The notes below the pieces were generated by a model. It saw only the letters and a program-made list of their open reading frames with translations. It searched no databases and was not told the DNA's origin. Positions 10,612-41,700 of a stretch of 64,000 nt of DNA are shown in pieces. Made by a program: the position numbers and the translations under genes. Within the stretch, counting starts at the first letter, position 1. Each line of letters begins with the position of its first letter. The DNA is from Sphaerolaimus hirsutus (lineage: Eukaryota > Nematoda > Chromadorea > Monhysterida > Sphaerolaimidae): NCBI GenBank assembly GCA_964036195.1, contig OZ038457.1, forward strand, positions 19,805,147 to 19,869,146, in the 5' to 3' direction.

Positions 10612-11030
10612 TTTTCTTAGGCCCCTTTTACACCTTTTTTCTGTGACGACTCCGACAACATGAAAAAGTTCATAAACCAAGTATAAAGTCCCATATTCAT
10701 TAGAAAACATGGCCAAGTATGCTTATCACCTAGGCGTATATGCATGCCAAATTGCAGATAAATCGTGCTTGTCTTTCAAGAGTTATAGACGTTTGAAGTT
10801 TTTTGCCATTGTCGCCATCTGTCGGGCTCCGACAATGGCACATTTTCTTCAAACGTCTATAACTCTTGAACGACAAGCACGATTTATCTGCTATTTGGAA
10901 TGCGTATACGCCTAGGTGGTAAGCATACTTGGCCATTTTATCCAATGAATATGGAACTTTTTACTTGACTATTTAACTTTTTCATGTCGTCACAGAAAAA
11001 AGGTGTAAAAGGGGTCTTATGTGCCTTCAC
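10612..11030. repeat. Large foldback (arms about 185 bp)
   Basis: The left arm (AGTTTTCTTAGGCCCC..., ATGGCCAAGTATGCTTATCA) is repeated inverted on the right (TAAGCATACTTGGCCAT, GTCGTCACAGAAAAAAGGTG). The centre near 10800-10850 carries GCCATTGTC / GACAATGGC. It lies just beyond the 3' end of the RLR gene. Confidence 0.8.
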
Positions 11031-14700: not shown

Positions 14701-17700
14701 TAAGTGTGCACTCTCTATCAATTTTTATGGCTTTTATCACCCCCAGAGGCGATTTTAGGCAGAAATGGGGCTAATTTTGACCCCAGCGATTTTTATTAAA
14801 AAAATCGATTTTTTATTTCTAAATCGGGGTCGTTAAAAAAATCGATTTTTTTCCAACCCTATATCCCCCAAACCCCTCCCTCCAAATCGCCCAGCAATCT
14901 ACCTATCCGAAGTGATTTCTGAGAAAATTTTACTCCTATTGTTGCTCAAAATCGCTCATTTTCGTACCTTTCTGGTCAGGCGACACAGTCAGGTAATTTT
15001 GGCAATTTTGTGGAAGCAAATCGGCCACCCCTCTTTTTCAATCTTTACTCAATTCAAATAGTTGATGATGAAAGTGTAGTTAGATGCATGACATCAAGTG
15101 ACTGGTTTAATACTGTATAACAAATCCCCTATAACTATCAGTCATGTGTTCAATATTTAACTCATTTTTGTCAACTAAAACTATAGTTGACAATGAAAAA
15201 CGGAAAATTTTCGGTCAACTAGTGTGTGAAGGTTGAATATGCCATTCCAAGCTATCAAAACACCATATTGTTACTAGCAAGGACGTAGCCAGGGGGGGCG
15301 GGGGGGGGGCGGCCGCCCCCCCCTTCCCGGGCCGGACCAAAAAATGTGCCAGAAATGGCACTTTCAGACGACGATTTTGTCGACAGTTTGTAAAATTTTT
15401 GCGCGCAAGCGCGCATTCTCCCTTCACAACATATCTTTTTGGCTGACCAGTCTCCGCGGCCTAAAAGCCAGTGAAAATGGACTCAATTTCTGACCATGTC
15501 GCTGTATATGCCTGTAAATTACAGACGTATACTGCTGTTTTGGCGCCAATGCCAACGCCAGTGGTGCCATGGCGTGGCGCATACGAATGGCGCCATTCCC
15601 CTACAACAGGGGTAAAATTTTAGGGTGTGGGGGGCGCCGCCCCCTCCGTTCGCCGGGCTCCGTATACAATCCGCCCCCGCTCAAAAATCCTGGCTACGTC
15701 CCTGGTTCTAGGGATGGCCAAAAAACGTTTTTTAACGACCCTGTTTGTTTTTTTAAAAACAACGTTTTTTTAAATTTCAAACGGTTTTTTTTAAAAGCGC
15801 CCTGGTTATGGGTCAACATATACAGGTATATCAAACAATTGCCAGTACTTTGTGATGTAATATATAGCAACAGAATGGCTGTGCAGCCATGGGATAGCAT
15901 TATAATGGTGATTTCTGTCAAAAATATCCATTTTTTATTGATTTGTTACGTATATCACCTTTTGTCGAAACGTCATGACTTCAAGTCAAGTTTTGCATGG
16001 AATAGCACTTATATAAGCTTATATTTATTAGTAGGCTATTCCGTTGACAGTGATGGATCACATTGTAGAAGTACAGGGGTGGGCATCTTCAGTTACCGCT
16101 GGGAAAATGCGATAGATTGAGCTACGGTTGAGCTATCAGAATGAAATTTTAACACAATGGAGTAGACTCCATAGGACACCTATTCTGAAGTTTGCAACCC
16201 AAACGGCCACATTTTGGGTGAGTTGTGGAACACACGGTTTTTAGTGTAATTTTGTGACTTGGCGTCACCCATAGGATAAATCGAGGGTGGCATTTGAGGG
16301 GGGGGTCATCGGTCGTTGGTGTCGTCCCATTCTGTCGTACATCGGCCGATTTTGATGCCCTTTGAGTATGTTGTGGTCGCGCCTACTACCAAATTCTTTT
16401 TTTACTCGAATAGTCCCCCAGTCCCGAGATAAGGGGGGTGAAGTCACAAAATTACACTAAAAACTGTGTGTTCCACAACTCCTCCAAACTGTGGCCGTTT
16501 GGGTTGCAAACTTCAGCATAGGTGTCCTATGGAGTCTACTCTATTGTGTTAAAATTTCATTGTGATAGCTCAACTGTAGCTCAAGCTATCGCGTTTTTCC
16601 AGCGGTAACTGAAGATGCCCACCCCTGTATGTGGGAGCACATTGGCTGGATATTATATGCTACACTAACATATCACGGCTTATTATTACACAATAGCAAG
16701 AACAAATGGAAGCTTTCACACTAAAAATGCCTCAAAACCAATGAAAACAATCACCAATGGTAAAGTGTATGTGCAATTGCGCGCTTGCGCGCAAAAAATT
16801 GCAAAATACCTAGTACATAGTACACATTTTTTGGCTTTGAAAAAACAACGGTTTCGATGCCTCTGTTTTTAAAAAAACAACGTTTTTATAATAAAAAAAC
16901 GGTTAAAAAAACACACCGGTCATCCCTAATTGTTACATATACACCAAGGTGATTTTACTTACATGTGAAATTGTGGGCTTTCAGCACTATGCGCACAAAT
17001 GCAGATTTTCTTTAAAGCTAGACATGCTTATTATTTCATGCTTAGAAATTAGTGCCAATATATCATCACAAGACACATTGAAGGAGCAAGCACGTCATTT
17101 AATTGTTATTTTATCCAGTATATATTAATCAATATTTAGCATTAAGTATTTTCGAGAACAACGCAGGCTTCGTGCCATTACACGAATACACAAACCAAAC
17201 ACACTTATCTGAATATTACGAAGCGCTGTAAATATCTTACTCATTTGAGCTAAAATACCTATTACATCTATATTCATTTACCTGTACATTTATGCAAAAT
17301 GAAGACCAAAATCCGATCCAAAAGTACACTCATAATCTGTCAAAACTACTTCTAAAATGGGAAACGTCTGCAAGAAAAAGCCAAAAAACGACGTTATCGA
17401 GCCGGAGCCAAACAAGGATGCAAACATCCCCGAAATTCGCATAGATTCTCCAGTGTCCGACCAGGTGCCAGTCCCAGACCCTGTCAAATGACCTGTAAAA
17501 TGTCAAATCTCATGCTCAAAAGTCATGGAAAATGCCCTGCAAGTGGCAACCGAATTGTCATTTTGCAGGACATTTTCCATGACTTTTGACACCTTGCATG
17601 ACATTTGACATTTTACAGGGCATTTTACAGGGTCTGAGACTGCCCCCAGGGGGATGTTCCTTCAGGTAAGGTACCCGAAAACTCGACCTAGAAAAAGTGA

Positions 17701-20700
17701 CCTTTTTATTCAAAATCCCATTAAATAATCATCTTGTCCTTACATTACACACTCTGTCGCCCTGTCCTTACATTACACTGTCTCATAAATGTAACTGTCG
17801 TATGTTCGATTGATTTTTGCTTCTGTTTGTGTTTTGAGGATATCCATGACTCGCGTAGCCACCCGTGGTATTGTTGATGAACTGAAATGAATCTTCACCG
17901 CGCAGAAAACCCGGAAGAAAACGATTTAGAATTACCAAGAGGAGAGGATTCAAAAGGGAGCGACAGTGAAGACAACCTAAAAAATAACGACGACAACTAT
18001 GGTAAGATCCCAACGTGTCTAAATAACTACCTATAAACATAGGAACAACACACTTTGTAACGTGCACTGCCAAGTAACTTGTAACTGTAAGATAAACTTT
18101 AAACAGTTCACTGGAATGGGCCCACACAAACTACATTGTTGACACTAAAATTTGTGTCAACTAAATTTAACTGAGTTTAGATAAATTATGTGATTTGAAC
18201 TTTCTAAGTTATAGTCTATAGAGTGTAGTAAATTTTATATCGTGACACTTAATTTTAACTGTTTCTGTTAAATGAGATGCTTTTAATATTTTTTTGTGTT
18301 ATTTAGTTGACATTCAGTTGACACGAACTTTCGATGTCAACTAGTATGTGCGGGCGGGCCCAATGTGCCTGCGTGCGATTATCGCCCATACAATTTAAAA
18401 ACAGCAAGTCCTCCCGTAGACCGACCACAATCACCACCAAAAACAGATGATGACGAAAATAGTTTTGACGAAAACGATGAGCCCCAAATGGGACATTCCG
18501 AACATGAAAATGAAAGGAGTCCGATACCCCAGGTGCCAATCCCAGACCCTGCAAAAAGCGGTGTAAAATGTCAAATGTCATGCAAAGTGTCAAAAGTAAT
18601 AGAAAATGCCCCGCAAAATGGCAACAACCGATTTGCCATTTTGCAGGGCATTTTCCATCACTTTTGACACTTTGTATGACATTTGACAATTTACACGGCT
18701 TTTTACAAGGTCTGGGAGTGCCCCCAGGCTACCTACAGACCTGCCGACAAACCCGACAAGCCTAGGAGAGTCTCTGCACGTGCGTTTGTGAAAAATTGGT
18801 TTGAAAGTGTATGTCATTTGCATCAGAAGTCTAGAAGGGGGGGGGGGTCAACCCCACAAAGGCTTCGTCGGGTGATATTCCCCTTTTGAGTTTAACACCT
18901 TGAAAAGTCTATTATATTCATGACCCCGCGAACCCCGACCCAAATTTGTTTGCAGTTAGTTACCTATCTGTCTGAAGGAGTGATTTTCCTATCTAAATAT
19001 CTGAACGCCATTGACTCTAAATTTACAAGATCCCTGATTTGCATGATAATAACTTAGATTTACATTCAATTTAAGTCGTACAGGGCCTGAATTTGTAGAA
19101 AGGTAACAACATATTTATCTCATTTTCACAGGAGGTCAGATCAGTATGATCCGGCTAAGTTCTTTTCTTATGCAAGCTTACAAAACGCTTCCATGTGCCC
19201 ATTTGCTGTAGTTTACCTAAACTAGCTTCCCATCCGAGTTCATTACTGTTTCCTGTCCGTTTTGTGTTTCCAATGCAATGTAATCAGTGGAACCAGTGCA
19301 CATTGTATACAACAATAAAAACCTTGTTTGCATTACACCTGGGGGCGATTTATGCGCTGCATTTAAGGTGCCCCCAGACAGGTTTAGTCTGCCTAAGTTC
19401 TGGTGTAGTCAGGGAATAATTGAAATAACTCTGGGAGTTGATCAAGTATACATCAAGCCACATAGCCCAGGAAACAGTGTCCAATAAAGGGACTAGGATG
19501 GATGAAAGCACTCAGCTCAGCACTTTTCACCTTTGCCGCCTGCTTAAAAACAGCTAAATATCAAGCAATCGAATATTCAACCACCAAAGTCTTAGCACAC
19601 CATCCAAACATCGCAGAGGAGCTATGGATGTACGACCAAAGTCCGTCAGAAGAGAGCGGCGGGGAAATGCCGCCGCAGCCGGTACATTTGTCGCCGGGCA
19701 GACCGCCCCCGCCGAAAACCTACACCAGGTGTCACTCCTAGAGCCTGTCAAATGCCCTGTAAAATGTCAAGTGTCATGCAAAGTTGTCAAAAAGTCATGT
19801 AGAATGCCCCCTGCAAAATAGCAAACATTCGTTGCCATTTCCCAGGTAATTTTACATGACTTGAGACACTTTACATGACATTTGACATTTTACAGGGCAT
19901 TTTACAGTTTCTGGGAGTGTCCCTCCCCAGCAGCGAGGATGAAAATAAGGACGCCCCCTTGAATCCCATGAAGGTTGGCAACATCGTGAAGTACAACTTG
20001 TTGGACAAATATGACGTGTTCGCCAATATGAGACCGGAGAATGTGAGTTACATTTGTGTATCCAATGCATGGCTTGGTAGCATGCAGAATATCCTTATGT
20101 ATGCTTAGTTGTCCAGAGGGATAGCAAAATCATGGGTTTCAGACTGACTCGAAAAGCATTTTTGTTGTTTGTTTTTTTGTTGCGCGAAAAGCCGGCAATT
20201 TCTAATACAAATTTTAAAAACATTGGCGGTTGTTTTCAGTGGTTTTGCAGCATTTTTGTGTCCCAATTCTACATATAAGAAAATGCATGATCATTCCGAC
20301 AGGTTTCTGAAACATCAAAGTATGAAATATCACTCTAAATTCAACTTCTTTTCTCAGTTTGTTTAAGCAATTCCCTCGTCGAAGTCGAGAAGGTTCAACC
20401 AAATACGAAAATAACATAAAAATGGACTTTTTAACAAAAAGCTTGCTTTTTACCAACTTTTCGCCCATATTAGAAACAGCATTTTTCCATCCCTAGATGT
20501 CCAGAGAACATTATTTCTCTCCGTTTTTCTCATTTTCCCGAATTCTGTTCCATTTATATCAATTGTTTACAACCCAAAAAGAAAGACCGCAAGAACTGGC
20601 GCAAGGCAATGAAACACCTGAAAAATCTAGACAAACACGAAATTTCACAACCAGAGGAAAATAAGGAGGTCCCGTTAAATCCCATGAAGACTGGCAATAT

Positions 20701-23700
20701 AGTGAAGTACAGCCTCTTGGACAAATATAATATTTTCGGCAATATGAAACCTGATAATGTGAGTTTTGCTAATGTGCTTTGTTTGGCTTATAAATATCCT
20801 TTACGTTGTCTATTTGTCCAAATGACTTTTTTCTATTTTTTTCTCACTTTCCTGAATTTTAATTTTTTTATTTGGTTCAATGTTTGCAACCCGAAAAGCG
20901 AGGTCGCCAGAGGTGGCGCTGGGCTATGAAACAGCTGAAAAAGCGACAACGCACTTTACAACCAGTTAAAATGCGGGTTGAAAGTGACTTCATAAAGCAC
21001 AGAATGTTGGCTTCAGTAGGCGTCCAGGTGCCAGTCCCAGACCCTGTAAAATGCCCTGTAAAATGTCAAATGTCATACAATGTGTCAAAAGTCATGGAAA
21101 ATGCCCTTCAAAATGGCAACCGACACTTTGTAAATATGACATTTTACATTTTACAGGGTTTGGGACTGCCTCCCCCCAGGGTACGAAAAGCAATGTGAGT
21201 GGCGGCGGGATTCGTTTTCGGGGTTTAAGGTGCAAACACACACATTTTTCAGGCTTGTTCCGGGTGTAGAAAGGTTAGGCAAAAAAAATGCAGAATCTAG
21301 GTGAAAATAGCTAAAAAATAATATATTAGCAGATAGCTGGCCGATATGAGTAGCAGTATCATAGATAAATAGATAGGTATCTGAGCCGCCCCCGGGATAA
21401 ATAAATAGATAACTGGATTGTTTTGGGGAACCACAACTACCCCTTTAGACCCCTTTATCATGTATTTTTCTCACACTGGCATGATAAGAATAATTTGTAA
21501 TGAAGCACAGCGGGATTGAGACCAGTTTGCGCAATTTTTATGTACATGGTCGGGCTGAAAAGTCCCCGGGCAGTGCTCGGCATTCGCGCTGGGGGTAAGC
21601 TACGGTTTTAAAATTTTAACACGTTAATATATCAGGTGTTTTGAGTTTTCACCCAAAATTTCACCCCTCTAGCTCCACCCAATGCGGAACTGTGGGGGCA
21701 GGGGTATCTTGAATTTTGACCATCCGAGTGGTTGGATAGATAGCAAATCGCTCCTCTGGAGGGATAGATAGCTGAAAAATTTTCTGGGGGGGGGTTGGGG
21801 GGGGGTTTGGGGGGGGGTTGTGGTGGTTCGATATATAGGCTTTTTCGGGGCATAGAAGGAAGAAAAGGGAGAAAAATCGCTAAAAGTAGGTGTAAAATAG
21901 CTCAAAATGGGTATACAAGAGCATATAGTACTTAAAATAGCTGAAAATAGGCAGTTAGACGCATGAACCAGTGATTTTGGAGGTGAAAATCTATATATAG
22001 GTATGAAAAACAGCGATTTTCAGCCAAAATTGGGGTATAGTTTCTGAAAAATCGCTCCAGATAGGTAGATAGCTGGGCGATTTGGGGGGGGGGGTTTAGG
22101 GGGTAGTAGCCCAAAATTTTGCCTCCGGGATAGATAGATAGCTGAGCGGCCTCCGGGATAGATAGATAGCTGGGCGGTTTGGGGGGGGGTAACCCCCCCC
22201 CAACCCCCCCCATTCGAGACCCCTGTGTGGGGGTTACAATTTCGGTCATTTTGTACTGATGTACAAATGGTGCTCTAGCTCAACGCTGCTTTAAGTTGTG
22301 ATCATGAAACTTTGGCTAGTGTAAGCCACCAGTGTTGGCAATGTGCCAGCACTTACCAACATTAGCTATGATATCATAAGCCTGGTCCATATTGTCATTA
22401 CTCTCACTACTCTCACTACCAAATTCATCATTCTGCGTCTATGGTTGGTCAATAATACAGGTTAATACAGGATGCATTTTACATGCACACTGCTGTTGAA
22501 CACAGATAATGTGTCCACTACAGATTAGTAATGAAACAAAAATGAAATTTAATTGACATAATAATTTACTGCACATTTCAAAACAACATTAAAATCACTG
22601 CAATACAACATGATCTCAGATGATAACCAAAAACATCCATCACAGTTCCCACGTTTCTTGCACATCACCCTGATCTGCATATTAATTTTACCTTAATAGC
22701 AATGATGTTGATGAAAGTGTTGAATAGTATCAGCACATTGCCAACACTGGTGGCTTACACTAGCCAAAGTTTCATTATCACAACTTTAAGCAGCGTTGAG
22801 CTAGAGCACCATTTGTACATCAGTACAAAATGACCGAAATTGTAACCCCCACAGTTCCGCAGTGGGTGGAGCTAGAGGGGTGAAATTTTTGGTGAAAACT
22901 CAAAACACCTGATATATTAACGTGTTAAAATTTTACAACCGTAGCTTACCCCTAGCGCGAATGGCGAGCACTGCCCGGGGACTTTTCAGCCCGACCATGT
23001 AAATACAATCGCTATACAAAGTAAACGCAAACGTACGCAAATCCCACTGACAAAACTACATTTTGTTGTCGTTCTTTTTCATGCACCATTTTTTTCTAAA
23101 CACACCACATATCCAATCATTTGATCATGTAACCTAACCAATTAATGTGTGCAATGCACCCTGACTATTTACACATTTTAACACAAAACAACGTTTTCAC
23201 AATTTTCCGAACACACCATCCCTAATCAAATCAAAACTACGCACAGCGATGGCGTAAAGCACTGAAACTATGGAAAGCAAAACGTCATGAGTTCGAAAAC
23301 TCGAGCCAGCCAGAAACAGACCCGAGCCCACTGAATACCATGAAAACGGGTAATATTGTCAAATATGCCATGCTGGATAAATACAGCGTGTTCAATAAAA
23401 TGCAACCCGACAATGTTGGCTTAATTAAAGACCTTTCTTGAGTCATTTCAACAATCGATGCTAAATTTTCACGGCGCGGCGCAGAAATGGCGCAAGGTAT
23501 TCAAACTGTGGAAGGCAAAGCGGCACGAGTTGGAGGCGGAGTCAGAGTGGGTGGACGAAAACGCGCAGTGGAAGCATAACAAAGGTATGTATCTTGGCAC
23601 AAAGCCAAGTCAAAATTACCACGCACACCATAAATCAAAATTACATTCGATTTTCATGTGCATAACCACACATAACAGAAAACGGGCCCCGACTGAAAAC

Positions 23701-26700
23701 CCTATTTACCGGCGCTATATTTTCGAGCGTAGTGGCCAACAATGCCAAAACACATTCCATTGTAGGCAAAAATGGCAACGACACGGAAACGACCAGCTTG
23801 TCGAACGTGATTCCAAATGATCCCAAACACAGAGGTTAGATAATCGACAATGTCGTCGATTACGGTATATACTCGGCGGAACCCAGAGCATGCGTCCAAA
23901 ATTACTTATGTCTTAGACGATAACGAGCAACCAAGTTACTTATGCACGCACTTTCACAAAAAGAGAAAATATTATCAAAAAGGCGGTGACCAAAGTTTTT
24001 CCAGAAACGTTTTCCTTATTTAATATAAACAATTCTTATTTTATTAACGATGACGTCATGATGGAGTGTTTCCTTCAGAAAAATGCATAGCATGCGGTCT
24101 GCCTGATTCCTACCCCCAACTTCCCCACATCATTCCAACAAACCCAGACTCCACTCTCCGCGACACGGAGACGCAAACGGAAAAACGCGGCAAGAAACTG
24201 CGCCGCCGCAGGGCGCGAGCCACTCAAACAAAAGTCAAGAACAGCGGCAGCGTGGGCGTCATTGGAAGCTCGACGCGCATTCCAAAGAGCCCAGCCCCAG
24301 GCCCTGGCCAGGGTTTGACCCCCGATTCTGCCCTAGAAGGACACAAATCGAGGAAAAAAGGCGAAAAGGGGTCGCAGGGCTCGTCGCCGCGGCAGCGCAA
24401 GTCTAGGAGCAGGGATTCACGCAGGACGATTAGCACGCCCGCCGCGCCCAGGGGTTCGTTTCAGACATCTTCATCAAAAACTCACACAGTTTTCAAGTCC
24501 ACTGACGTCCACTGAATTTTTAAGTCCGCATTAGAATGAAATCTGAGTGCAAAAAATTATGTAAAAGTTCTCTCCTGTAAAATGAATTCACGCCTAACGT
24601 CGTCAATTTTAGAAACATTGCATATGTGAGTAACGTTTGGCAGGCTGCCACCATAAACTGACGCGTCCACTAGGGTTCAAACGGGATTGACTTTTCGGGA
24701 TCGGGATCGGGATTCACTTTTTGAGATTTCGGGATCGGGATCGGGATTGGGGTTTCGGGATCGGGATCGGGATTGGTATTTTGAGATTTCGGGATCGGGA
24801 TCGGGATTGGCCGGGATTGGGGTCACGGGATCGGGATCGGGATTGGCATTTTTTCGGGATCGGGATTGGGGTCTAGGGATAGAGATTTTTGTCACTGTTC
24901 TGGCATTCACAGTTGTTCATCAAGGTCTCAACACACTGTTGGATGCCAGAAAAGTGACATAAAATGGACGCTGGGGGTTTGCGTTCACATTTTTGCACGC
25001 AAAAATGTCATTTTTTCACTGTTTATAATTTTCACTATTTTTTCCGGGATCGGGATCCCGGACTTGGGAGATTCTCGGGATCGGAATCGGGATTTGAAAG
25101 TTTTCGGGATCGGGATCGGGATTGGTATTTTTGGATTTCGGGATCGGGATCGGGATTGGGGTTTCGGGATCGGGATCGGGACTGCTAAATCCCGGAATTT
25201 CACGGGATCCGGGATCGGGATCCCGTTTGAACCCTAGCGTCCACAGTATCAAGTGACCAGAATATATACAAAACACACCACCAATACATACACCCTTTTT
25301 CCGGTAGATCGCTCCATGAGTAGAAGTGTCAGCCGCGATGACAGAAAACCTCCCAGGAAATCACCAGAATCCGTAAGTTTCTCAAAAACATTGAACAAGT
25401 CACAGTACCCTAAAAATTCACCCTTTTCAATCACAAAAGCGACGCAAAAGTCCCAAAAAGACGCCAAAAAGGGTCCGAAAACCGCCGGCGACACCAGTGG
25501 AAAGTAGCACGAGCACAGACGAGATGGAATATGAAGAACACGCGCCGAAAAGAAAGGGCGGAAATAAGCCGAAAATTTTGAGGCCCGACAAACGGCCGGC
25601 CTACAAAAAAAGATTTGACCCGGCAAATGCGCAAACTGTCGGGACCGATTTTGGAATTTGGCAGTTTTATATACCATATTTATATCGTGAAAGTGATTTA
25701 GGAAAGATATTGACTTTTTTGCAGGTGCGAGCACCGTGGCAGCCGTGATCGCGTGCAATTGTGAATATATGTGATCAATATATTTTTACATCTGAGCGCA
25801 AAGATTCTTATACGGGAGAGTTTTATGAAATATATGTAAATATTTAATTGTTATTTTCGGAAACTACTGGTGCAGTGCGTTTTCTAGCCAAATGCTGGGG
25901 GAAAATAAATGAGTATATGAAATATGAAAATACTTATTAAAAACCCATAAACGTCGAGCAGACCGAGAATTGGCCAGCCAAAACGTCGTTATTTTCAATA
26001 CCTCCCAAATAAAAAAATCAGGTTTAAAAACAATCCCCCTAAACCCAACACACCTCATTCTGCATCCAAGTTTGTCCCATGGGCACGATCCTCGCGTGGA
26101 TTATGCTCCTGAGCAGGAGCTGTTTGTGCATGTTGCCCAACTCGCGGTCGGCCAGCGTGCCCGGCAGCGCCACCAGCACGCAGCGCGAGTCGTGCGCGCG
26201 CGCCCGCCCTTGAGGTGGAGATTGGCTTGTAGGGTGTTGCGGGTATAATCATGAGAGGTAGAAGTTAAAAAAATAGTTTTTGAATATCTTTTTTTCCAAA
26301 GAAAGTTATTTTTGGTGGGGTAAAATTCTTCCCGTTCGATTCGGAATATTCGATTTGTTGGACCATTTTGAATACGTTTTGATGTGGTTTGAAATTTTGT
26401 TGCCGCGCAAAATTTTCACCTTTCTTTTTCGACCTGCAAATCACCATATCAAATTGAGAATTTCTATTGTGTTGGCATTAAACATGCATTTCCAAACAAA
26501 ACCATGCTTTAAATTAAAAAAAATTATTTTTCCATTTATGATAACAAAATAATTTCATTATATTAAATTTTTTCAAATTTATGTTTTTCCCATTGTATGA
26601 ATCCAAATGCCAACAGCAACTATGGCAAAAATAGCAGCACGAGCGGCTTACCTTGTCTCTGGGTCCTAGCAATTTCATTCGAGACCACATTGTACACCAC

Positions 26701-29700
26701 GATGAGGCTGCACTGGGGAATGTCGAGGCCCTCCTCAGCCACCGAAGTAGCCACCAGAATCTTGGCTTGACCTCGCCTGAACATGGCCAAATTCCGCAGC
26801 ATGGCGCTCGTGTTTGCGCTGGGGGCGGAGTCTAGCGTCGTCGACGTCGATCGGGTACCTTGGTTTAGAATGTAAATAAGTAAAAGCACGGCAAAAGAGA
26901 GGTGGCAAACGGTACGGTAAGTATTTTGCGGTAAACGGAAAATACATGTTCAATTTTGAGGCAAACGTTACGCCACAGTAAATTTCTACAATTGCGGTAA
27001 ACGGTACGGTAAATTGTCCCATTTTGCGGTACGGTAAGTGCGGTAAATTCTGCCACAATTAGGGTTCAAACGGGATCCCGATCCCGATCCCGGATCCCGT
27101 GAAATTCCGGGATTTTGTAGTCCTGATCCCGAAAATTTTCAAATCCCGATCCCGAGAAACTCCCAAGCCCGGGATCCCGATCCCGGAAAAATTAGTGAAA
27201 TTATAAAAAGTGAAAAAATGACGTTTTTGCATGCAAAAATGTGAACGAAAACCCCCCCAGTGTCCATTTTATACCACTTTTCTGGCATCCAACAGTGTTT
27301 TGAGACCTTGATGAAGAACTGTGGATGCCAGAACATTGGCCAAAATCTCTATCCCAAGACCCCAATCCCGATCCCGAAAAAATGCCAATCCCGATCCCGT
27401 GACCCCAATCCCGGCCAATCCCGATCCCGATCCCGAAATCTCGAAAAACCAATCCCGATCCCGATCCCGAAAAGTCAATCCCGTTTGAAGCCTAGCCACC
27501 ATACACATTCTATTTTAGATGGGGCACCTTCTCATCTAATTCAAGGTCAGGGATACAAAACGTCATACAAAGGGATCTGTCAAAACGCACTAATCAACGG
27601 CACGGCAGCAATCCCATCGACGGCCGGACCCTCTGGCATCCCTTCCATCCCAAAACTGACGTCGTTCAAATACTCAGCGAGCAATTTCACCATCTGTCTG
27701 GTCCTGGCGAACACGATCACTCTGGGGGCAGTCCTAGACTCTGTAAAATGCCCTGTAAAATGTCAAATGTCATGCAAAGTGCCAAAAGTCATATAAAATG
27801 CCCTGGCAAATGGCAAACGTACGCTTGCCATTTTCCAGAGCATTTTACCTAGGGTTCAAACGATATATCGTATCGAATATCGACCATTTTTTAATATCGA
27901 ATATTGATATCGAAAATTTTGAAAAAATATCAAATATCGATACCGAAAATTTTGAAAAAATATCGAATATCGACCATTTTTTGGATATATCGAACCTGTA
28001 TTGTGTCCCTAATTAAAGTTACTATTTTCATTTTGAGATATTTGTGATTGATCTGATTTACTTATAGTATTTTATTTGATGAGTAAAAGTACAATATTTA
28101 TAATGTCATTTTTGTTGGAGTGCTAAATTTGAAGCCTGAAAATACTGATATGCAATTTTTTGCCACATGCATAGGGCAATTTGGTTATAAGTATGCAATA
28201 TAATATCTACCAATTGTTGTTTCCTGATACACTTTGGTTCATCATGTTTTTCTTCCATTTTCTACTTTTGACTAATGTAAACCTTTTTAAAATCACTTGT
28301 ACCATTCACATTTCAGCAAAGAGATGATTTGCAACCACATGAAAATGAAGGGTGTGCTTCTAAAAGTACCGATCTACAAAAAATTTTGAGATAATCGCGA
28401 TTAAAAGTTTGGAGCATGCAATACCCATACATGGGTATTGGGTATGGGAATTTTGGGTAAGGGTATTTCGGCCATATTGTTGGGTATCCACATGCATGGG
28501 TTCATTGATTTTACACATCACACTAGCTATATAAAATTTAGGGAATTGTATTTTTGTAGTACAGTACATTTTAAAGGAACAAATTGGTAATAGCGTGTAG
28601 ATCGGTATTTTTTAAAGCACAAAATCAGAAAGCTGTAGATAGGTACTTTTACCCATAATAAAAAAGCACAAAATGAGTTTTTGCGCAACCGGACACCGAT
28701 CTGACATCGGTACTTTTAGAAGCACATAAAATAATGTGCAGATCAGTACATTTAAAAGAACAATTTTGAAAAAAGTGTGTAGATCGGTACTTTTAAAGAC
28801 ACAAAAGCTGAAAAAGCTTGTAGATTGGTACTTTTAAAATTTCAAAAACTGTATTTTGCGATTGTTTTGCTTTTTTCGACCCCATATCTCAAAATTTTCG
28901 ACCCCAATTTCGCACCCCCCACATATTATATATATTTTTGAAGCGCAATTTTATGGGGACCCCAAAAATGGGCCTAACTCAAATTTGAAAAATTTGTAGA
29001 TCGGTACTTTTAGAAGCACACCCTTCAAATACAATATGCCGCTTGAAATATGCCTTGCTATACCAAAAGCAAATTGCAATATCGAATATCGAAAATATCG
29101 AATATCGACCATTTTTCAATATCGAATATCGAATATCGAATCGAGGTTCCATATCGTATCGATATCGAATATCGAGTTTCAGAAAAGTATATCGAATATC
29201 GATATCGAAAAGTCATATCGTTCGAACCCTAATTTTACCTGACTTTTGACACTTTGCATGATAAATATTTGCCATTTTACAGGGCATTTTACGGGGTCTA
29301 GGATTGGAACCTGGATTCGGGCTTCTCGACGAAATGGGCGCGCAAAATGTGCACGAGCTTGTCGCACAGCTCGGTGCGCAGCATCAGGGCCGACCGGTCG
29401 GCGTTCAAATTGCTGGCCAGGAGAAACGTGTCTGGGGGTGGCGGGGGGGGGGGGGCTATTTAGCTAGGTGCTTGTTGAGTGGATTTGCAATCAGGTTTCA
29501 AATCGGATCCCGATCCCGAATTCCGATTATTTTCGGGATTTTGCGGTCCCAATCCCGATCCCGAAACCTCCAGTCCCGATCACGATCCCGTTTGAACCCT
29601 ACTTGCAATGACCATTCTCTTCTAATTTTCCATAAGGTGCCAGTGATTGGCTGTTTTTCACTGGAAATTGAATATGTAGCGCAATAAATGCTGAGTTCAT

Positions 29701-32700
29701 TTCCATATCGTAAAACAGTTCATGTCACATCGATATTTGAAATATCTCATTATTAAAAGTTTCCTACAGCCGTCGCGAATTCATATGCCGAACCAAACGA
29801 ACCCAACAAAGTTGGTTTCATTTGTAATTACGCTTTTTATTTGTTATATTTTAATGTGCCTTGCGCTTATGACTCCTGGTTGCTAACGTCATGTGCGAAC
29901 AAGCGCATACACATCTCACAATGGTGAATCCCAAACATTTTGAATAAAATTTCAAATGGAATTTGAAATTGGGCTGGAAACCAGTTGCCATTTGGTGTCG
30001 ATGTCAACTAGTGTGTGTGTAGGCATTGAAAAGTGCAGCCAAACAAGAGCGGGTCGATGGGTCAACTCAAAACAAATATCGAATCATGAAAGTCCATATC
30101 ATATTACGCTGAGAGCGGCCCTTCACTTGATTTGACCATATGAGCAGGCTATAATGAAACTTGCCTAGCCTTGCATTGAATGAAAAAGTATCCTAGCAAC
30201 AAATAACTGAAATATTTCATGGCATTTGGAGTCCACACAATGAAAACGATAGTTGCAATCCCGCCATCACTAGTCCATAAAGTGTTTGTTTCCTCAACAA
30301 TAATGCAACTTTCACTTCTGGCGATATTTACGGTAACTCTGAACATCAACAAATGTATTTCATACGAATGCAGTAACTGTGAGGGAGTATACAGGTACGC
30401 GCGACGCAAAGCAAGCAATATTGGGGGGGGGGGGATTGCATTCGCAGGCTGGCAAACGGGGGGGCGGCGCCCCCCCTAACAATTTGCCACTACAAGAGAG
30501 GAATGGAGTTATGGCGCAGGCGCCATTTCTAGGCGCCACGCCATGGCGTGATTGGCGCTGGTGCTATTTGTAGGCGTCGCGCCATGGAGTCATAGAAGGG
30601 GTCTCGCCTATTCTGCATTTTGGCCTATTCCGCATTCTAGCTCATCCCGCACATTATGCTACCCATCTCGCATTTTGGCCTATCCCGCATCTTGCCGGTG
30701 TAATGGGCGTGATAGGCAGTGTGCGTGATGGATTTGTGTGCGGGATGGTCCAAAATGCGGGATGGGTCAGTGATCACACATTGCGTTTTAACACCCCCCC
30801 CCCCGCCCCCTTCTTTCAATTGATCAGTGCCAACCGCACACTGCCCACACAATAATCACTTAATTGCGCAACACCCAATTAAGTATTTGGCAACTGGGGG
30901 GGGGCAATTGACATGTGCAGCATGTGATTTGCACGTGCAGCGCACATGGGGAATTCCATTCCAAAAGTACACAAGCGCTGAAACATCTAGTTAGGCGTGG
31001 ATTCGACATTCACGTATAGTTTTGCCCATTTAAGAATTCCTGGTCGGAAAGTTGGAATTTAAAAAATCTCCAAAAAAAACAAAAAATACAAAAAGTTTCA
31101 TTTCCAAACGTACACACGTGAATTTCCAAATCTATTTTGCACTATAAATATATCAAATACATGTGTATATATTGATCTGAAAATTTAGGTACTTGGTTTA
31201 TGCCTACGTTGCACCATTAAGAAGTTATTTAACTTTTAATTCTGAATGTTCAGATTTGTTCCCAATTTTAGGTGTATTCTAAAATATACCAGTCCATAAC
31301 TCCCTAAATAATTGCCGGCCAAAAGAATTTGTAGATACATTCATTCAATCCACTATCCACAAGTTTTCAATTCCAGTTGTTCAATTTCAATTCCGGGGGG
31401 GCGATTTTAAGCAGTGTCATTTTGGCAGTAAAACAAAGGGCAAACATTGTTACTCGTCATTTCCATTGTTATATGCCCTTTGAGTTTGCCGCGCCATGAT
31501 GCTCATGAAAATCTCTGGCTCATTCCGCATGTGCGGCTCCCATATGTCTGGACGCAGTTGGTGCGGGGGAGGGGGTGTTAAAACGCAATGTGTGATCACT
31601 GATCCCTCCCGCATTTCGGACCATCCCGCACACAAATCCATCACGCAATTTGTTCCTTTAAAATGTACTGTACTACAAAAATACATTTTACTAAATTTTA
31701 TATAGCTAGTGTTATGTGTATAATCAATGATTATACCCATGCATGTGGATACCCAACAATATGGCCGAAATACCCATACCCAAAATTCCCATACCCAATA
31801 CCCATGTATGGGTATTGCATACTCCAAACTTTCAATTGCAATTATCTCAAAATCGATTTTTTGTAGATCGGTACTTTTAGAAGCACACCCTTCATATAGT
31901 CATTTGTAGAGGTATATGTACTCCTCAGACGTATAGACGAGTACCTAATAGAAATGGGGAAGTGGTGAAATGCGCGCTTGCGCCCAAAACTTTTGCAAAC
32001 AACCCACAATCAAATCAGTGCCAAAAGTAGCTTTAAAATGGCTAACAATAGGTCTATAACCATGTATAAATATAGCGGGAAAGCGCGATTTTGAAGGTGA
32101 AAAAGTATAAAAAGTTGCGAAAATTAGTGATTTTGAGGGAAAAATCGGGCAAAATTTCTCAAAAACCACTCCAGATAGATAGATAGCTGAGCGATTTGGG
32201 GGGGGGGGGGTCTTTGGGGGCAGTAGCCAAAACTTTTACCTCGGGATAGATAGATAGCTGAGCGGCCTCCGGGATAGATAGATAGCTGGCCGATTTGGGG
32301 GGCAGCCCCCCCTAGGAGACCCCTGACCACACAACAACCAGCCTACCGCAGGTCATACGCAGTGGGTGGCTGGTGTTTCTCCCTACACAACGACACCCTG
32401 TCTCGCTTCGATGATGCACTCAGCCACAGGCCAAAATGCATGGCACAGCAACATTACCTGGCTTCATTACCCGATTTGCACTCTCGCATCACACTGGCCA
32501 ATGCACTGCAGGTCAGTGGAATTTTTATGGCAATGTGATTAGAGTTCAAACGGGATCCCGATCCCGAATACCGAGAAATTTCGGGATTTTGTGATCCCGA
32601 TCCCGATCCCGAAACCTCAATCCCGATCCCGAAATCTCAAAAAAAAGAAACCCGAATCCCGAAACTTTTGAAATCGCAATCCCGATCCCGATAATTTTCA

Positions 32701-35700
32701 CTGAATCCCGATCCCGAAAAATTTGCCGACTTTTTAAAATAACATTTTTGCACTAGGTAAGCAATGTGACCAATAACCTCCAATGTCCAATTTATTTATG
32801 CCACTTTTCTGGCATCCGTGCATGTTTTAGACCCATTTTTGCAGTAAATCAGAGAAAATCCTGTAATATGATAACTTTTTCAAAGATCCCAATCCCGATC
32901 CCGAAAAAATGCCAATCCCGATCCCGAAGTCAGTCCCGTTTGAGAATCCTACATGTGATAAGCAAGGACGTATCCAGGGGGGGGGCGGGTGTTGCAAAAT
33001 GTGTTGCATTTTTCCATCGCGCTGTATCATACACTGAACGGCGTGTTTGTCGCCCTATATTTATGTATATTTACTTACATATAAGCGATTTTTGTCGCCA
33101 ATGGCGCCATTCCGCCCACCATGTACGTTAAATCTTAAAGGCGGGGCTGAGCCAGGAATCTATTAGCAGGGGGGGGGGGGCTGCCCCCACCAAATCCGCC
33201 AGGTATCCATCTATCCGGGAGGCCGCTCAGCTATCTATCTATCTATCCTGAGGCAAAGATTTTGGCCTCTACCCCCTGAGCCCACCCCCCCAAATCGCTC
33301 AGCTACCTTCCTACCTGGAGCGATTTTTGAGAAATTTTGCCCCAATTTTCGCTCAAAATTTTCATACGATTTTATAGTTTTTCACCTTCAGAAGCACAGA
33401 TTTCGCATATACACATGTTTATATACATATTTTTAGCCTATTTTGGCTACTTTTAACCTGTTTTTAGTGATTATTCCCCTTTCTGCTTTCTATACATTGA
33501 AAGAGCCTATATATTTGGGGGTGCACTGATACGCACATCTGCCTGATACGCACATTTTCCCGTTTTTTTCACTTGACACTTTTTCAAGTTATTTTCAGAT
33601 ATGAGTAAAGTGAAAAACGCTGCGCAATGACATTAGTGAACTTTTTTCACTTCACTCATATCTGAAAATCACTTGAAAATGTGTCAAGTTAAAAACAGTG
33701 AAAAATGGCTATTTTTCACTGTTTTTCTTCACTTGACACATTTTCAAGTGATTTTCAGATATGAGTGAAGTGAAAAAGTTCACTAATGTCATTGCGCAGC
33801 TTTTTTTCACTTTACTCATATCTGAAAATCACTTGAAAAAGTGTCAAGTGAAAAAAACGGGAAAATGTGCGTATCAGGCAGATGTGCGTATCAGGCCTGC
33901 CCCATATATTTTGCCCCCGCAAGCCCCCCTCCAGGAAACTTCCAGCTATCTATCCCAATGGAAGAGCGATTTGCGATCTATCCAGCCCCCGCGAGTGCCA
34001 AAATCTTGGAGACCCCTGGGCTGAGCCACCCTTCGTTCACCGGGCTCTGTAAACAAGCAACCCACCCACTCAAAAATCCTGGATATGTCCCGGCTGATAA
34101 GAAATTGAAATGTGTTGATAGCATAAAGCGCCACAGCTGGACAACAGAGGTGCGAGAATAGCCCTAGCAAAGGTTGATGATGACCAGTGGGCATGGCTGC
34201 CAGATTCAGACAACTATGGTACTTTCAATGAAGGTGGTCACACAGTGTTCGGTATCAATTACACGGTGATATCAAACAGCTCATCGGATACTAGTGCAGC
34301 GCTGACAACAAATGGTCAACTGATTGCAGTCAGTACGGATGCTCTTTTGCCAGCTATATATCAGACTAGTGAGTCAAAACTTGGTTAAATCAAAATTTAA
34401 ATGATATTGAACTCAATTACCCATTTGAAGGGCTATTCCGAGTGAAAGAAACTTGCGCACAAAACACAAGAGCAGTGGATAAGCTGGAACATTCTTACCA
34501 AGCTTATGATATTGACCAGTGCCAGAGGTATTGTTACAGGTCACCATTCTGTAGTGGATACATGTTCAGACAACCACAACAGTTCTGTCAGCTGCATTTT
34601 GCTTACAGGTAACTACCGTATTTGCTTGAATCATCCCCCTGGGGGATTATTATTTCGTCAGACTTTTTTGAGGGGGGAACTAATCGAGGGGGGAATTATT
34701 CGAGGAAGGAAATTATTATTACGTCAACAATTTCAACAATGTTTCTATCAACTCATTTGATGAAATATGCTTTTATTCACACAAAAACGTGCCATTTTTG
34801 TTCAAATTGGGGACAATAAATTGAGCAAATCTCTTAAGGGGGGATTATTCGAGGGGAGGAATCATTATTTCCTCACTCGTCTTACAGGGGGGGATTATTC
34901 GAGGGGGGGAATTATTCAAGGGGGAACTATTCAAGCAAATACGGTAAGTCATTAAATTTGTATTTTTTAAATATTTAAGCTTGGATTGGGGGGGGTGAAA
35001 GTTCAGTGGGTAGTAGCCAAACTTTTCACCAACAGATAGATAGATAGCTGAATTGTGTGTGAAATAGATAGATAGCTAGGCGTTTGGGGAGTAACAACCC
35101 CAACCCATTTGGCTACCCCTAAACATGTATCAAAATATTTGCAGCCCGCTGTCAACCACAACAAAAGTAGAGACTGGTTCAACGTTTTGCCGTTATGATC
35201 AGAGCATGCTAGGTCAGGTGTCACTGGATGTCCTTTTCATTTCCAGTCACATCCGTAACCATTAAGTAAAGCCTTAAAATGTAAAACTGCAGGCTGCAGC
35301 CAACTCAACAGTTCCATGCACGTAGCTCAATACTCAAAAGGATCAAATAGACAAAGTGTAATGTCAGGCAGTCTAGCCAAGTTCACATGTACCAGCCATA
35401 ACAACGCAGCCCTGGTGTCAATCCCAGACCTTGTAAAATTCCCTGTAAAATGTCAAATCTCATGCAATATGTCAAAAGTCATGGAAAATGCCCTGCAAAA
35501 TGTCAACTCGCTGCCATTTTGCAGGGCATTCTCCATGACTTTTGACACTTTGCATGACATTTGACATTTTACAGCGTCTGGGACTGCCCCCTGAGCGGCT
35601 ACAGGACCAGTGGTATACTCGCATGCAATCAGGGTTCATGGGTTGGCGAGCAGTGCCAATTGTGGGTAGGGTGTCAAACAAAACAGCGGCCAGAAATCGG

Positions 35701-38700
35701 AAATGGAATTTTTTTTGCACTTTCTTGAAATCGGAATAGGGAGAATGAAGTGTTCGAAAACAGGAAAACAGAAGGCCAAGGACGTATCCAGGGGGGGCGG
35801 GGGGGGGGGGGGGGGCTGCAGCCCGGGGTGAGACCTAAAAATCACGGTAAAATGCGACTTTCACTACCATTTTGCAAGGTGCAATACAAAAAATTTTGCG
35901 CGCAAGCGCGCATTGTTCTAAATAGCATAAGGAATATTACCATTTTGACCCCTGTTGCCGCATTTCCTTTGAAATTTGCGCAACGGTGTGTTTATCGCTG
36001 TATTTGTGTGTATATTTACATACCTATACAGCGTTTATGGCGCTGGCGCCAACGCCAATGGCGCCATGGCGTGGCGTCTACTAATGGACTGAGCCCCCCC
36101 CCCCCGTTCGCCGGGTTCCGTAAACAAGCAGCCCCCCCCGCTCCAAAATCCTGGATACGTCCCTGCGGAAGGCAATATTTCCAAAGGCATTTGCACACAT
36201 GAATTACAATAAAGTGGAGAACTTAGAAGACAAATGGCAAATGACTATAAAATGTAATATGTGAAAAGAAAAAAGTAAAGATGAATCCAGATATTCCATG
36301 GATTCAGAAACGCATGTGGAAAGCCGAAAATTTGACACCCTAATTGCAGCGGAATAGTAAGTTGACTATGGATTCAATACTTTTGTTTAATTTTCCATTT
36401 CTTTAAATGGAACAGTAGTTGGCCAGTCTTTTAGGGATCGAAAGATAGCGGGAAATCGCGTAAAAGTCCATAAAACATACAGAGGTGTGGATATTTCAAC
36501 CAACGCAAGGAGGCTGGCAAGAATGGGGTCCGGATATACCACCCAGGAAAGTTGAATCGGATATATTTGATGCGCTTTCGTTACCCCTTTTCGAGGCGTA
36601 TTGTCCAATTGTGGAAATGATAGATTACATGGTCTACTTCGTATTGCGTAAGTTCAAAAATGGCCCCACGCACACTATAGTTCACAACGGGCACTTCCAC
36701 TTTCCACACTGATAAATCATTTCAAACATATTTGAGTTTACCAAAATGATAAATTTTATATCTCCATCAACAGTAGTTGATGGACTCCACTATCGTAAAC
36801 AAAATTATCAGCTTCGGCAATTTTCATTGTCAAATAGTGGTGGAATGGCGCCATGACGCCAATGGCACCCTTTTCTTTGGTGCCATCTGGCATCTGGCGC
36901 CATTGTGCCATTTTCTCTGGCGCTAATATTTGAATGGCAACATAGCGCCATTTTTCCTGACACTTTTCCATCACTATTGTCAACTAGTGTGCGTACAGAT
37001 TTTCTTCCAGTCTGCGAGTACGCAACCAATCTTGAGCGTACTGCGCAGCGTCAATTGGCAGGGTGTGGTCAGCCAACCCGGCCACTTACGAACTCACTGA
37101 GAAAACACCACTCGATCCAATGGCAGAAAATGTCCGCCGCGGCGGCGCGGCATTTGAAGGTCTGATTGTGATGTGCGGTGGAGGGTACGATACTGGTCCG
37201 TCTGATAAATGCCACAGGTGACAAATCAATGGCGAGAACTCGGTGCGCATGTAAACCCGGTGCACATCCAGGATTTTTGAGCGGGGGTGCTGTTTGTTTA
37301 CTGAGCCCGGGGGGGGGGGGGGCTCAGCCCCTTTAACTTTTCATCCACATGGTGATGGAATGGCATAATAGCGCTGGTGTCATTGTAGGGTTCAAACGAT
37401 ATATCGTATCGAATATCGAATATCGGATATCGACCATTTTTTAATATCGAATATCGATATCGAAAATTTTGAAAAAATATCGAATATCGATATCGAAAAT
37501 TTTGAAAAAATATCGAATATCGATATCGACCATTTTTTCGATATATCGAACCTGTATTGTGTCCCCAAATTTACTTTTCATTTTTATTTTGAGATGTTTA
37601 TGGTTGATCTGATGTGCTTATAGTATTGTATTTGATGAGTAAAAGTACAGTATTTATAATGTCATTGTTGTTGGAGTGCTAAATTTGAAGCCAGAAAACG
37701 CTGATATACTTTTTTGCAACATGCCCTTAAGCAATTAGGTTAGGCTGAACTGTAATATCTACAAATTGTTATTTGTCTGATACACTTTGATTCATCATGT
37801 TTTTCTTCTATTTTCTACCATTGAGTGATGTAAAGCTTGTTAAAATCACTTGCACCATTCAAATTTCAGTAAAGAGATGATTAAACATGTGTGCAACCAC
37901 ATGAAAATACAATATGCCACTTGAAATATGCCTTGCTATACCAAAAGCATATCGCAATATCGAATATCGAAAATATCGAAATATCGAATATCGACCATTT
38001 TTCAATATCGAATATCGAATATCGATATCGAGGTTCCATATCGTATCGATATCGAATATCGAGTTTCAGAAAAAAATATCGAATATCGAATATCGATATC
38101 GAAAATTTTGAAAAAATATCGAATATCAAATATCGATATCGAAAAGTCATATCGTTTGAACCCTATGTCATTGGCATTGGCGCCAAAAATCACTGATATT
38201 TTTGTAAATATTTACACAAACATATAACGCGACGGGCATGCCATTCGGGTTATTTTGAACAAAATTGACAGTATGAGGACCGATTTACTTAATAAATATC
38301 AGTGTGATGGAAAAATGTGGAAACTTTGGCCTACATGTGCACTGGGTTTACATGCGCATTGGCACAGACCCCAACTTTTGACACAAAAGCAGCTGTCTCC
38401 AAAGTCAAAGGGGGGTTGGCTGGGGGGGGGGGCTGCCCGTTTCGCTGGCTGCCCCATTTGCGGTCAGGTTTTTCAAAGTTATTCTGTGTTTAAAAATAAC
38501 CTACGTTTTCAGGATAAATACCGCATTTCTTTGAATTAACTACACCCTTGAATTAACCCTCTCTTGTTAACTTGTTAATTAACAACTTTTAACACAATAA
38601 AGCAACAATACAAATCCCTTTGTGTTCACTCGCCATGCAGATTGACAAGGTACATCTACATGACCAGTGGGTAGAAATACATGACTGGCTGGTCTACATG

Positions 38701-41700
38701 ACCAGCGGGTAGAAATACATGACTGGCTGGTCTACATGACCAGCAGGTAGAAATACATGACTGGCTGGTCTACATGACCAGCGGTTAGAAATACATGACT
38801 GGCCGGTCTACATGACCAGCAGGTAAAAATACATGACTGGCTGGTCTACATGACCAGCAGGTAGAAATACATGACTGGCTGGTCTACATGACCAGCGGGT
38901 AGAAAAACATGACTGGCTGGTCTACTTGACCAGCGGGTTGACATTACTACAAGCAGTCTTCACAGTTAGCTAAACCTTTACAAAATACCTGTAGTTCAGC
39001 ATTGCATTACAATGCTTAGGTCTAGAAGGGGAGCTACCAATGATTTTTTTCACCATTTTTAAGGTGTTTGATCAAAAAAAGGAATTGTTATTATAAGTAC
39101 ATTGTAGGGATTATTATGTGTATAATAAAAATTCACGTTTTTCATATCTGTTTCTTAGAAAACGGCAAAAACATGGCCAATTCCCAGGTTCCACAACCAA
39201 AATTGTAGGCAATCACATTTAATACCCAACAAATGTGCGCATATCACGCAGTTACAATCCAAAAACTGGCGTAACTGGCACTCTTCCAAATCTGCACGAG
39301 CCACGTACTTGGCTGACACTTTGCACATTCCGAAGGCGTCTATACTACATTGGGGGTTCTACATACGATTCGACCACCTCTACAATATATCATGGCGTTA
39401 CAGGTGATGTTCGATAAAGAGGGTAGTACACTACCGTGCAGAATAGTTGAGACTTTTTGCGCTGAGTGATAAATGTTGCCAGAATTTCGAAATGGTTGAT
39501 ATGCAAAACCTTTGGATACTATACATTGGTACCCCGGAAGGTTGACTACACATGCCCAGGATGACTGCCCCTCGAGTTCAAATCTGCGTATATTCCTAGT
39601 GTACAAACATATTGACTCAGTTTGTTCATGTTTCAGAATAGTTGAGACTTTTCTTGTTTTGGGCAGTAGCCACCCAGTATCTCACTTTAAAGTTTATATA
39701 CAATTCCTATGTTCATTTTTTAACAAAATTTTCACCATGGCAACTGCTTGCCTGCATCGCTGAGCTCTGTGTGCAGCAAGAAACATTCTAAGCATGAACA
39801 GCATATGGCAATCCATATATGGAAATGTGGCATTTACTTTTTTTTGCTGCAGTTTTGCATCCATAGCCAACAACTCAAAAATGGGGGTAGGCATACTACT
39901 GAGTGGGGCTATTTGGTGTGTAAATTTAAGGTTTTGGCTTTGCTCTATTAGGGAGAAAAGTTGGCCCAACTGTGAATGAGTAATGTGCAATTATTTTGGA
40001 TGGAATGAAGATGGAAGTTTGTAAGTGCTATTACTTTTGATTGGAAAGAGATATTGAAAAAACGTTTTTGTCATATTAATTCCCTCTGTCTTAAGTATGT
40101 TATAGACTGTTCAATAACAAAATTTTCATGCTGCAAACCACAGTAAAATAAGCATAAAATATTTAGACACCATTGAAAACTTTGAAGTGCCATAACTCTT
40201 GATTGGAAAGAGATATTGAACTCATTTTTGTTTTAAATGAATCCTTGGTGTCTAAAGTATATGATAGCATGTTCAAAAAAAAATATTTTTTCATGTTCAC
40301 AAACTGGGTCAAATCGACATACGGAATTCAGACATCACTAAACTGACCACAAAAATAGAATCTGCAGGTTGTGCCGGTCATTTTAAGTGTTGAATGATTC
40401 AAATCAGCCCAGAAATAGTTGAGTTAGCAAGCTTCAAAGACACTCATCAAGATTGCCCGTTTTTGTATATTCATCGACCATCCTTTTTTAGACCCCCCTT
40501 ATCTTGGGCCTGGGGGATTATTTGAGCAAACAAAAATTTTTTCATAGTAGCCGCAGCATCAAACCCCAACATACTCAAATGGCATCAAAATTGGGCAAGG
40601 GACAATAAATTGGGAAGCAAAAGAATGCGGTGGACCCCCAGCCTACTGTTTCTCTGTGTGAAAAGTCTCAACTATTCTGCACGGTAGTGTATATATAGTA
40701 AAAATCTTTTTCAATTGGAAATTTGTTCAAATCGAATTCACAGTACTATTAGTTAACAATATAAATTTTCAAAATTGATTAATCAGTTCCAAACACATTT
40801 CAGTTTGGTGGAATGAATAATGGATTTCGCTTTTGTCAAACGTAGTTACAGACATCTTCGGTAAACTCAAATGTGTTCAAAGCTGATCTGTCAGTTTTCC
40901 AAATTTCGGTTGTAACTAGTGTAAAAAGGCATAAAAACAAACAGTTGAGCTTCAGCAACTACCGCATTTCCTCGAAATACCCCCCCCCCTCAAAATGGGC
41001 ACTATGAATTTGTTGTCCGGGAAATGCATAACAGACGTTCAAAACACTTACTGTGTTACGTTAGAACATCGTTTATACCATCTACATCCTTATATAAGGC
41101 TGTAAAAACTTATAAATGGTGGTTATTGTTGCATTTTTCACGTTTTACTCTCAAAATTTTCACTCTGAAAAATAAACCCCCGGGGGGTAATTCGAGGAAA
41201 TACGGTATTTAAGTGTAAATACAGGGTAAGATTTTGAAAACAATGTTCAGGCTTTTAAATGCCTTGATCAGTAACTGAGCCACATCGAATCTATGAATTT
41301 CGGGAATTGATTGCTATTTGTAACAACGTCCAAATAACAAATCCGTCAAATGCAGACGTGAAATCGATGGGTCCGGAAATGAGCAGTTGGAGAGATGAAC
41401 CGCCAATCAGTCACGGCAGATCGTATATTCAAAATTGCCGCGATTACCATGGAAAATTGTGTGGATGGAGCAAATGTTTTTCCCGACGTGTTTGTCGATC
41501 ACGCAATGGCGAAAATTGTCGATGATAAGGAACGTTAACAACAACAAACATACTGAATTGAACTTTACACATCTAGGACCTCCAGGGGGGTACTAGAGTT
41601 GGCACTTGATTTTCAACTGATTTTTTTAATCACAGGGTGGAAACTGATTTTAATTTAAAAAATATTTTTTAATCAAGGCGCTTAAAAAAATTGATTTTTT

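Follow-up and report, generated by a model that had tools for sequence, protein, structure and literature searches.

The stretch of DNA analysed here (the window) comprises 64,000 nucleotides of contig OZ038457.1. It holds, among other sequences, a gene for a RASEF-like large Rab protein, a helicase gene related to the RIG-I-like receptors (RLR) and Dicer, a short gene without family assignment at 17357-18808, a group of tandemly repeated exons and a gene at 35.3-35.7 kb. Six introns in these regions consist entirely of copies of a single element. Each copy measures 152-202 nt, except one in which a nested hAT-like transposon has raised the length to 1,589 nt, and together they occupy at least three genes, both strands and phases 0 and 2 (Table 1). 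A first-pass annotation had reported six such introns in three genes as an introner-like family. All six were found where it had placed them, a profile aligns over every one of them, and the distribution over genes, strands and phases was borne out by intron positions and reading frames.

Table 1. Copies of the element, related loci of the same family and the nested transposon in the window.
Feature	Position	Strand	Remarks
Element copy 1, whole intron, 185 nt, phase 0	17465-17649	+	Follows an open 36-codon exon from the ATG at 17357
Element copy 2, whole intron, 195 nt, phase 0	18533-18727	+	Same gene as copy 1
Element copy 3, whole intron, 202 nt, phase 2	19729-19930	+	
Element copy 4, whole intron, 152 nt, internally shortened, phase 0	21028-21179	+	
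Element copy 5, whole intron, 179 nt, with CCCTG at each edge	35415-35593	+	GT-AG as 35417-35595, phase 2
Element copy 6, whole intron, 1,589 nt including nested transposon, phase 2	27722-29310	-	RLR/Dicer-related helicase gene
Related copy in opposite orientation	2841-3006	-	Inside an intron of the RASEF-like gene, not a whole intron; partial copies from 2708 adjoin
Tandemly expanded arm sequence	3680-4253		After a RASEF-like exon, in an apparent later intron
Degenerate copy	2269-2416		Directly upstream of a RASEF-like exon; E 3.5e-17
Degenerate copy	58884-59047		Within an apparent larger intron (by eye); E 2.8e-19
Family fragment	48723-48794		E 2.8e-9; context unassigned; weak match at 48582-48638 (E 0.042) counted together
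Weak family fragment	55536-55679		E 1.3e-10; context unassigned
Nested hAT-like element, 1,382 bp	27850-29231	-	Inside copy 6; 8-bp duplication ATTTTACC at 27842-27849 and 29232-29239

Pairwise identity among the six copies ranged from 78 to 88% (15 pairs). In the uninterrupted copies, the match to the profile built from the six introns began at model position 1 and reached position 192-195 of 195, with E values of 8e-40 or better (17465-17649, 18533-18727, 19729-19923, 35415-35593 and 21028-21173), and the sixth copy was matched as two pieces, 29310-29232 and 27850-27722, with the insertion between them. The majority consensus is 193 nt long and has a predicted folding energy of -160.8 kcal/mol, forming just one stem that is closed by a small loop; counted on the alignment, this stem comprises 87 base pairs. 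The inverted arms described in the first-pass annotation are present, but these arms amount to nearly the whole element. When the five uninterrupted copies were folded and compared with 200 dinucleotide shuffles per copy, z-scores of -16.4, -19.3, -15.9, -9.1 and -17.9 were obtained for the copies at 17465, 18533, 19729, 21028 and 35415, respectively. For each of these copies, none of the 200 shuffles folded as well as the real sequence, and a chance origin of the hairpin fold is excluded. With inverted repeats at its ends and a length that, the nested transposon aside, is too short to encode a transposase, the element has the ends and the size of a miniature inverted-repeat transposable element (MITE). 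It also shows a hallmark of introners, namely similar introns in non-homologous genes with a similarity that reaches both splice boundaries. In the exon flanks, inspected by eye over 12 nt per side, the common sequence was limited to the terminal CCAG or CCCTG.

The reading frame continues in all six cases once the element is removed, and retention would lead to an in-frame stop in five copies and to a frame shift in the remaining one (21028). The minus-strand helicase intron (copy 6) is the strongest case of the six, being the best anchored. Its removal gives a frame reading ...HFVEKPESR before the joint and VIVFARTRQ... after it. The peptide over this joint, taken together with a further exon, matched a Dicer-related helicase (8.7e-17), LGP2 (1.4e-14), MDA5 (5.2e-11) and RIG-I (best value 2.6e-9); the two helicase exons on their own reached only E 0.04. 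The alignments to the Dicer-related helicase and LGP2 are gapless over the joint, and those to MDA5 and SrmB carry one extra residue adjoining it. RLR/Dicer-related helicase exons, which may belong to one gene, match DEAD (5e-6) and Helicase_C (4e-14); they lie on the minus strand at 49709-50158 and 26620-29440 and apparently span more than 20 kb.

Copies 1 and 2 belong to the gene at 17357-18808, whose exons (17357-17464, 17650-17665, 17906-18001, 18405-18532 and 18728-18808) form one 143-codon frame from an ATG. All four introns of this gene are GT-AG, two of them being element copies, and retention of copy 2 would result in an in-frame stop at codon index 44. The 143-aa peptide read here, which starts MGNVC, had no Pfam match. 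The tandemly repeated exons (ENKDAPLNPMKVGNIVKY / ENKEVPLNPMKTGNIVKY) at 19621-21194, without a Pfam match above the curated cut-off, house two of the six introns (copies 3 and 4). The exon downstream of copy 3 has a tandem paralogue at 20657-20758 that is under constraint (nonsynonymous divergence, dN, 0.15; synonymous divergence, dS, 0.60; 34 codons). After removal of copy 4 the exon ends in AAT, followed by GTGAGT, in phase 0, matching the tandem paralogues that end at 20042 and 20758; in the 5' part of the same exon, the comparison of 20582 with 20899 over 16 codons (dN 0.34, dS 0.32) gave no support for coding constraint. The tandem exon at 20580-20759 lacks the element and has a CCAG close to the corresponding position, but its upstream homology is too weak for it to count as an empty site. 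Copy 5 unites two halves of a sushi/CCP-like sequence that was recognised by eye only, and this identity of the gene at 35.3-35.7 kb was without support from Pfam or PDB. A search of Rfam returned no family at its gathering score.

The exons preceding the copies end in ACCAG, CCCAG, ACCAG, TCCAG, CCCTG and TCCAG, so that CCAG or CCTG stands before all six. The introns themselves end in CCCAG in five cases and in CCCTG in the other, and the CCAG previously noted at both exon and intron ends accordingly holds for five copies, with CCCTG taking its place in the sixth. The element starts with GTGCCAGTCCCAGACC... and finishes with ...GGTCTGGGACTGCCCC. Its 5' end reads GTGC, GTGT or GTTC followed by CA(G/A/C)TCC, and the reverse complement of the 3' arm reads, in consensus, GGGG followed by CAGTCC. 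At 35415, CTG...CTG forms a direct repeat outside the splice consensus, and GT-AG is regained by a shift of 2 nt. The coordinates originally given for this intron, 35417-35595, are correct for the GT-AG intron, but the element itself is better written 35415-35593; the frame is kept either way. Since a 3-bp CWG duplication gives equal arm lengths, 3 bp is preferred to 4 or 5, although the run of C leaves the choice loose. In all six copies, an A fitting the branch-point pattern yUnAy lies 22-26 nt ahead of the acceptor.

Taken together, these features suggest that the family consists of foldback MITEs, non-autonomous DNA transposons, and works as an introner; we assign this interpretation a probability of roughly 80%. 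It agrees with the introner-like family proposed at first, as whole copies are whole introns, in separate genes and on both strands, with imperfect terminal inverted repeats and a probable short target duplication. The element ends would be recognised by a transposase provided in trans, with insertion at C-CWG and duplication of CWG. At a CAG target, the upstream CAG would become the exon end (CAG/GT) and the downstream CAG the acceptor (CCCCCAG), while the donor GT would come from the element itself, whose 5' end opens with these two bases. There, GTGC stands where the 3' arm predicts GGGG, and since the 5' terminus is asymmetric in this way, only one orientation would be spliceable. Exon insertions in the spliceable orientation would be spliced out scarlessly and would be tolerated; those in the opposite orientation would persist only within introns or between genes. 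At the CTG target of 35415, splicing would probably use sites 2 nt further on, namely the second GT of GTGT and the AG of the next exon.

Local multiplication does not seem to account for the copies. Mean identity was 0.836 among the copies of the 17-21 kb region (6 pairs) and 0.838 between copies in different genes (9 pairs). Since neighbouring copies are no more alike than those of different genes, they point to separate insertions, and the idea that one introner was duplicated together with the tandemly repeated exons of the 19.7-21.2 kb stretch was rejected.

With neighbouring matches merged, the profile identified 12 loci in the window at E < 0.05 (60 raw hits up to E 10). Six of these are the whole introns described above, and the other six are partial or degenerate, lying within larger introns or without an assigned context. 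As some of them sit within larger introns, the element does enter existing introns, which would fit an alternative origin in which old introns were each invaded by a MITE and were left with the element alone, either by later loss of the original sequence or by conversion between introns. However, this would require that no original sequence was left at either end in any of the six introns, and all six copies stand in the spliceable orientation with a CCWG context. We regard this origin as unlikely.

The degenerate copy at 2269-2416, the cluster at 2708-3006 and the array at 3680-4253 all adjoin exons of the RASEF-like gene, which was recognised by its Ras domain (E 7e-53, exons joined by eye) and by RASEF as the best PDB match (1.4e-49). 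A tandem array at 3636-4152 with a 68-nt period, related to the introner arm, likewise adjoins a RASEF-like exon. The copy at 2841-3006 scored 120.9 bits in antisense and 116.0 bits in sense orientation and has kept a clear 3' end. Apparently symmetric copies with GGGGGC at both ends (2761, 2840) were also considered; scoring in two orientations suggests that these are antisense copies viewed from the 3' end, after which no symmetric form of the element is known in the 64-kb window.

An antisense copy in an intron of the RASEF-like gene is predicted by DNA transposition. This bears on a further alternative, in which intron copies would spread through RNA, being reverse-spliced and then reverse-transcribed as has been proposed for the introner-like elements of fungi, and would gain their inverted repeat only later. 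Such a route would explain why the limits of the element are the exact splice boundaries and why the exon end matches the intron end. The terminal inverted repeats, the CTG...CTG repeat and the antisense copy point instead to DNA transposition, and we consider spread through RNA very improbable.

Several points weigh against the transposon interpretation. We infer the splicing of the six copies from the reading frame, with additional homology at the helicase joint, and protein homology across the joint backs only this one of the six (29310-27722). Insertion into exons and transposition are likewise probable readings of the sequence. The short target duplication claimed in the first-pass annotation is probable as a 3-bp CWG, with CTG...CTG at 35415, but the CAG...CAG of the other five copies is confounded with, and could instead be, splice-site consensus. 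The case for an antisense copy at 2841-3006 is a difference of 4.9 bits together with the 3' end, and this copy displays no clean target duplication. The share of exact introns among the family loci speaks for the interpretation, the chance of finding six or more of 12 loci in exons being 5e-4 at an exon fraction of 10% and 0.019 at 20%, but both fractions are assumptions, and the figure derives from 12 loci in one window. Finally, no longer element with the same ends was seen in the 64-kb window, where transposase genes were without a systematic search.

The pronounced fold raises the question of whether the hairpin serves splicing. As an addition to the introner interpretation, the stem of the RNA could be a device that joins weak splice sites, hides inner AGs and is kept by selection. 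The stem spans nearly the whole intron, the terminal GT and AG are single-stranded in the five folded copies (with unpaired stretches of 2-4 nt at the start and 6-11 nt at the end), and the donor GTGCCA deviates from GTRAGT. We scored stem changes over 459 pair cells in the six copies, with 63 gapped cells set aside. Changes on both sides of a pair were observed 9 times against 2.9 expected, 7 of them being Watson-Crick; this would favour the device, but selection, subfamilies or exchange between the arms fit the excess alike. If the stem was under selection, G-U should exceed A-C among one-sided changes on the sense strand. With 13 G-U and 16 A-C changes (p 0.71), and 25 others that were neither, no such excess was observed. 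Moreover, a branch-point match at the usual distance exists without the fold. We therefore view selection for such a device as doubtful, and hairpin-assisted splicing as a possible addition to the introner interpretation, not the explanation. The idea that the RNA joins its own splice sites had been put forward with the first description of these introns. The fold on which it was based is real, but GT and AG are unpaired, and there is no sign that the fold is maintained for splicing.

The family had also been described as active or recently active. This was not supported, as the copies are only 78-88% identical and one of them has since been invaded by the 1,382-bp hAT-like element. With copies that differ pairwise by about 16%, and with a nested element bounded by a perfect 8-bp duplication, a very recent burst is hard to reconcile, though there is room for activity of the element elsewhere in the genome.

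No description of this element family was found in the literature searched, some key introner papers lying outside its coverage. Exact patterns of the element gave no hits in the IMG/VR and GTDB genomes, and a blastn search of copy 2 against phages gave no match; these collections are not meant for animal genomes, so that little weight is attached to the result. Introners are known in Symbiodinium, Micromonas, Aureococcus and other lineages (Gozashti et al., 2022; PMC9860276). According to that survey, some introners have terminal inverted repeats and target duplications of 3-9 bp and bring one splice site while recruiting the other from the duplication. The Chrysochromulina introner, for example, carries its 5' site and co-opts the 3' site, with a 4-bp duplication and no terminal inverted repeat (PMC9860276, Fig. 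2C). The same survey, in which animals and land plants contribute 835 of 3,325 genomes, records introners in only two animal groups, copepods being named, and homology between introners only among recently diverged species of one genus (PMC9860276). The family described here resembles these introners in its many similar introns in unrelated genes, in the terminal inverted repeats and the probable short duplication, both of which some of those families have, and in splice sites that would be divided between element and duplication. It differs from them, going by the published descriptions, in its apparently animal host, in a foldback over nearly the full length and in the inferred CCWG target (PMC9860276).

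Other systems share some features with the family. The introners of the dinoflagellate Amoebophrya also contain inverted repeats that make a hairpin, and direct repeats of 3-5 nt overlap their exon/intron boundaries, but they are non-canonical introns with varied motifs, whereas GT-AG fits all six introns of the one defined family here (PMC7789003). In the nonconventional introns of euglenids, RNA secondary structure similarly joins the intron ends; their borders are variable and non-canonical, in contrast to GT-AG borders within one repeat family (PMC4770533). Introns of clam haemoglobin genes contain a MITE-like repeat of 210 bp whose ends are inverted and whose centre is palindromic, but this repeat lies within ordinary introns and promoters, with no target duplication identified, whereas here the element is the whole intron (PMC4732748). 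This mode of intron birth is already known and is rarely reported in animals. What is unusual is the anatomy, with a foldback over nearly the whole length and asymmetric termini, in what is probably an animal host.

Genes of the RASEF-like and RLR/Dicer-related types are typical of animals. The animal host claimed at the outset is likely in view of the RASEF-like large Rab and the RLR/Dicer-related helicase. Tunicates are reportedly the second animal group in the 2022 survey of Gozashti et al. If our interpretation is true, one more animal lineage would have transposon-made introns. As a tentative extension, possible but short of probable, a foldback transposon of an animal lineage may have become specialised as an introner: with its 5' terminus diverged (GTGC versus GGGG), each insertion at CCAG in one orientation would yield a scarless intron, and hundreds or more such introns might exist genome-wide and then act as landing sites for other transposons. 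The origin of introns is an old question to which intron-creating transposons offer a directly testable answer. With six copies that are whole introns in 64 kb of an apparently animal genome, and with ends that are defined, a target that is probable and a single spliceable orientation, this family would offer an animal example in which the gain of introns, their splicing and the choice of target could be tested separately.

The window contains further mobile and repeated sequences. Members of hAT-like families with TAGGGTT...AACCCTA ends, paired by eye, and perfect 8-bp duplications are located at 27850-29231 (the nested element; ATTTTACC), 37386-38165 (TGTCATTG), 9052-10328 (GCCATGGC), 62941-63741 (GTTGCGAT), 24671-25236 (GCGTCCAC) and 49100-49342 (AGTGACAC). 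An exact pattern of the nested repeat was absent from the IMG/VR and GTDB genomes, neither of which is meant for animal genomes. Two stretches about 43 kb apart, 169-1775 and 43551-44761 (families D9 and D11), are 95-98% identical, and the related open frame MKHPPNLF... within them has no Pfam family. Further foldbacks of 200-558 bp occur at 16072-16629, 10654-10991, 33526-33894 and 8264-8463, and the ends of these four are not GT...AG. A tandem array with a 38-nt period extends over 38617-38982.

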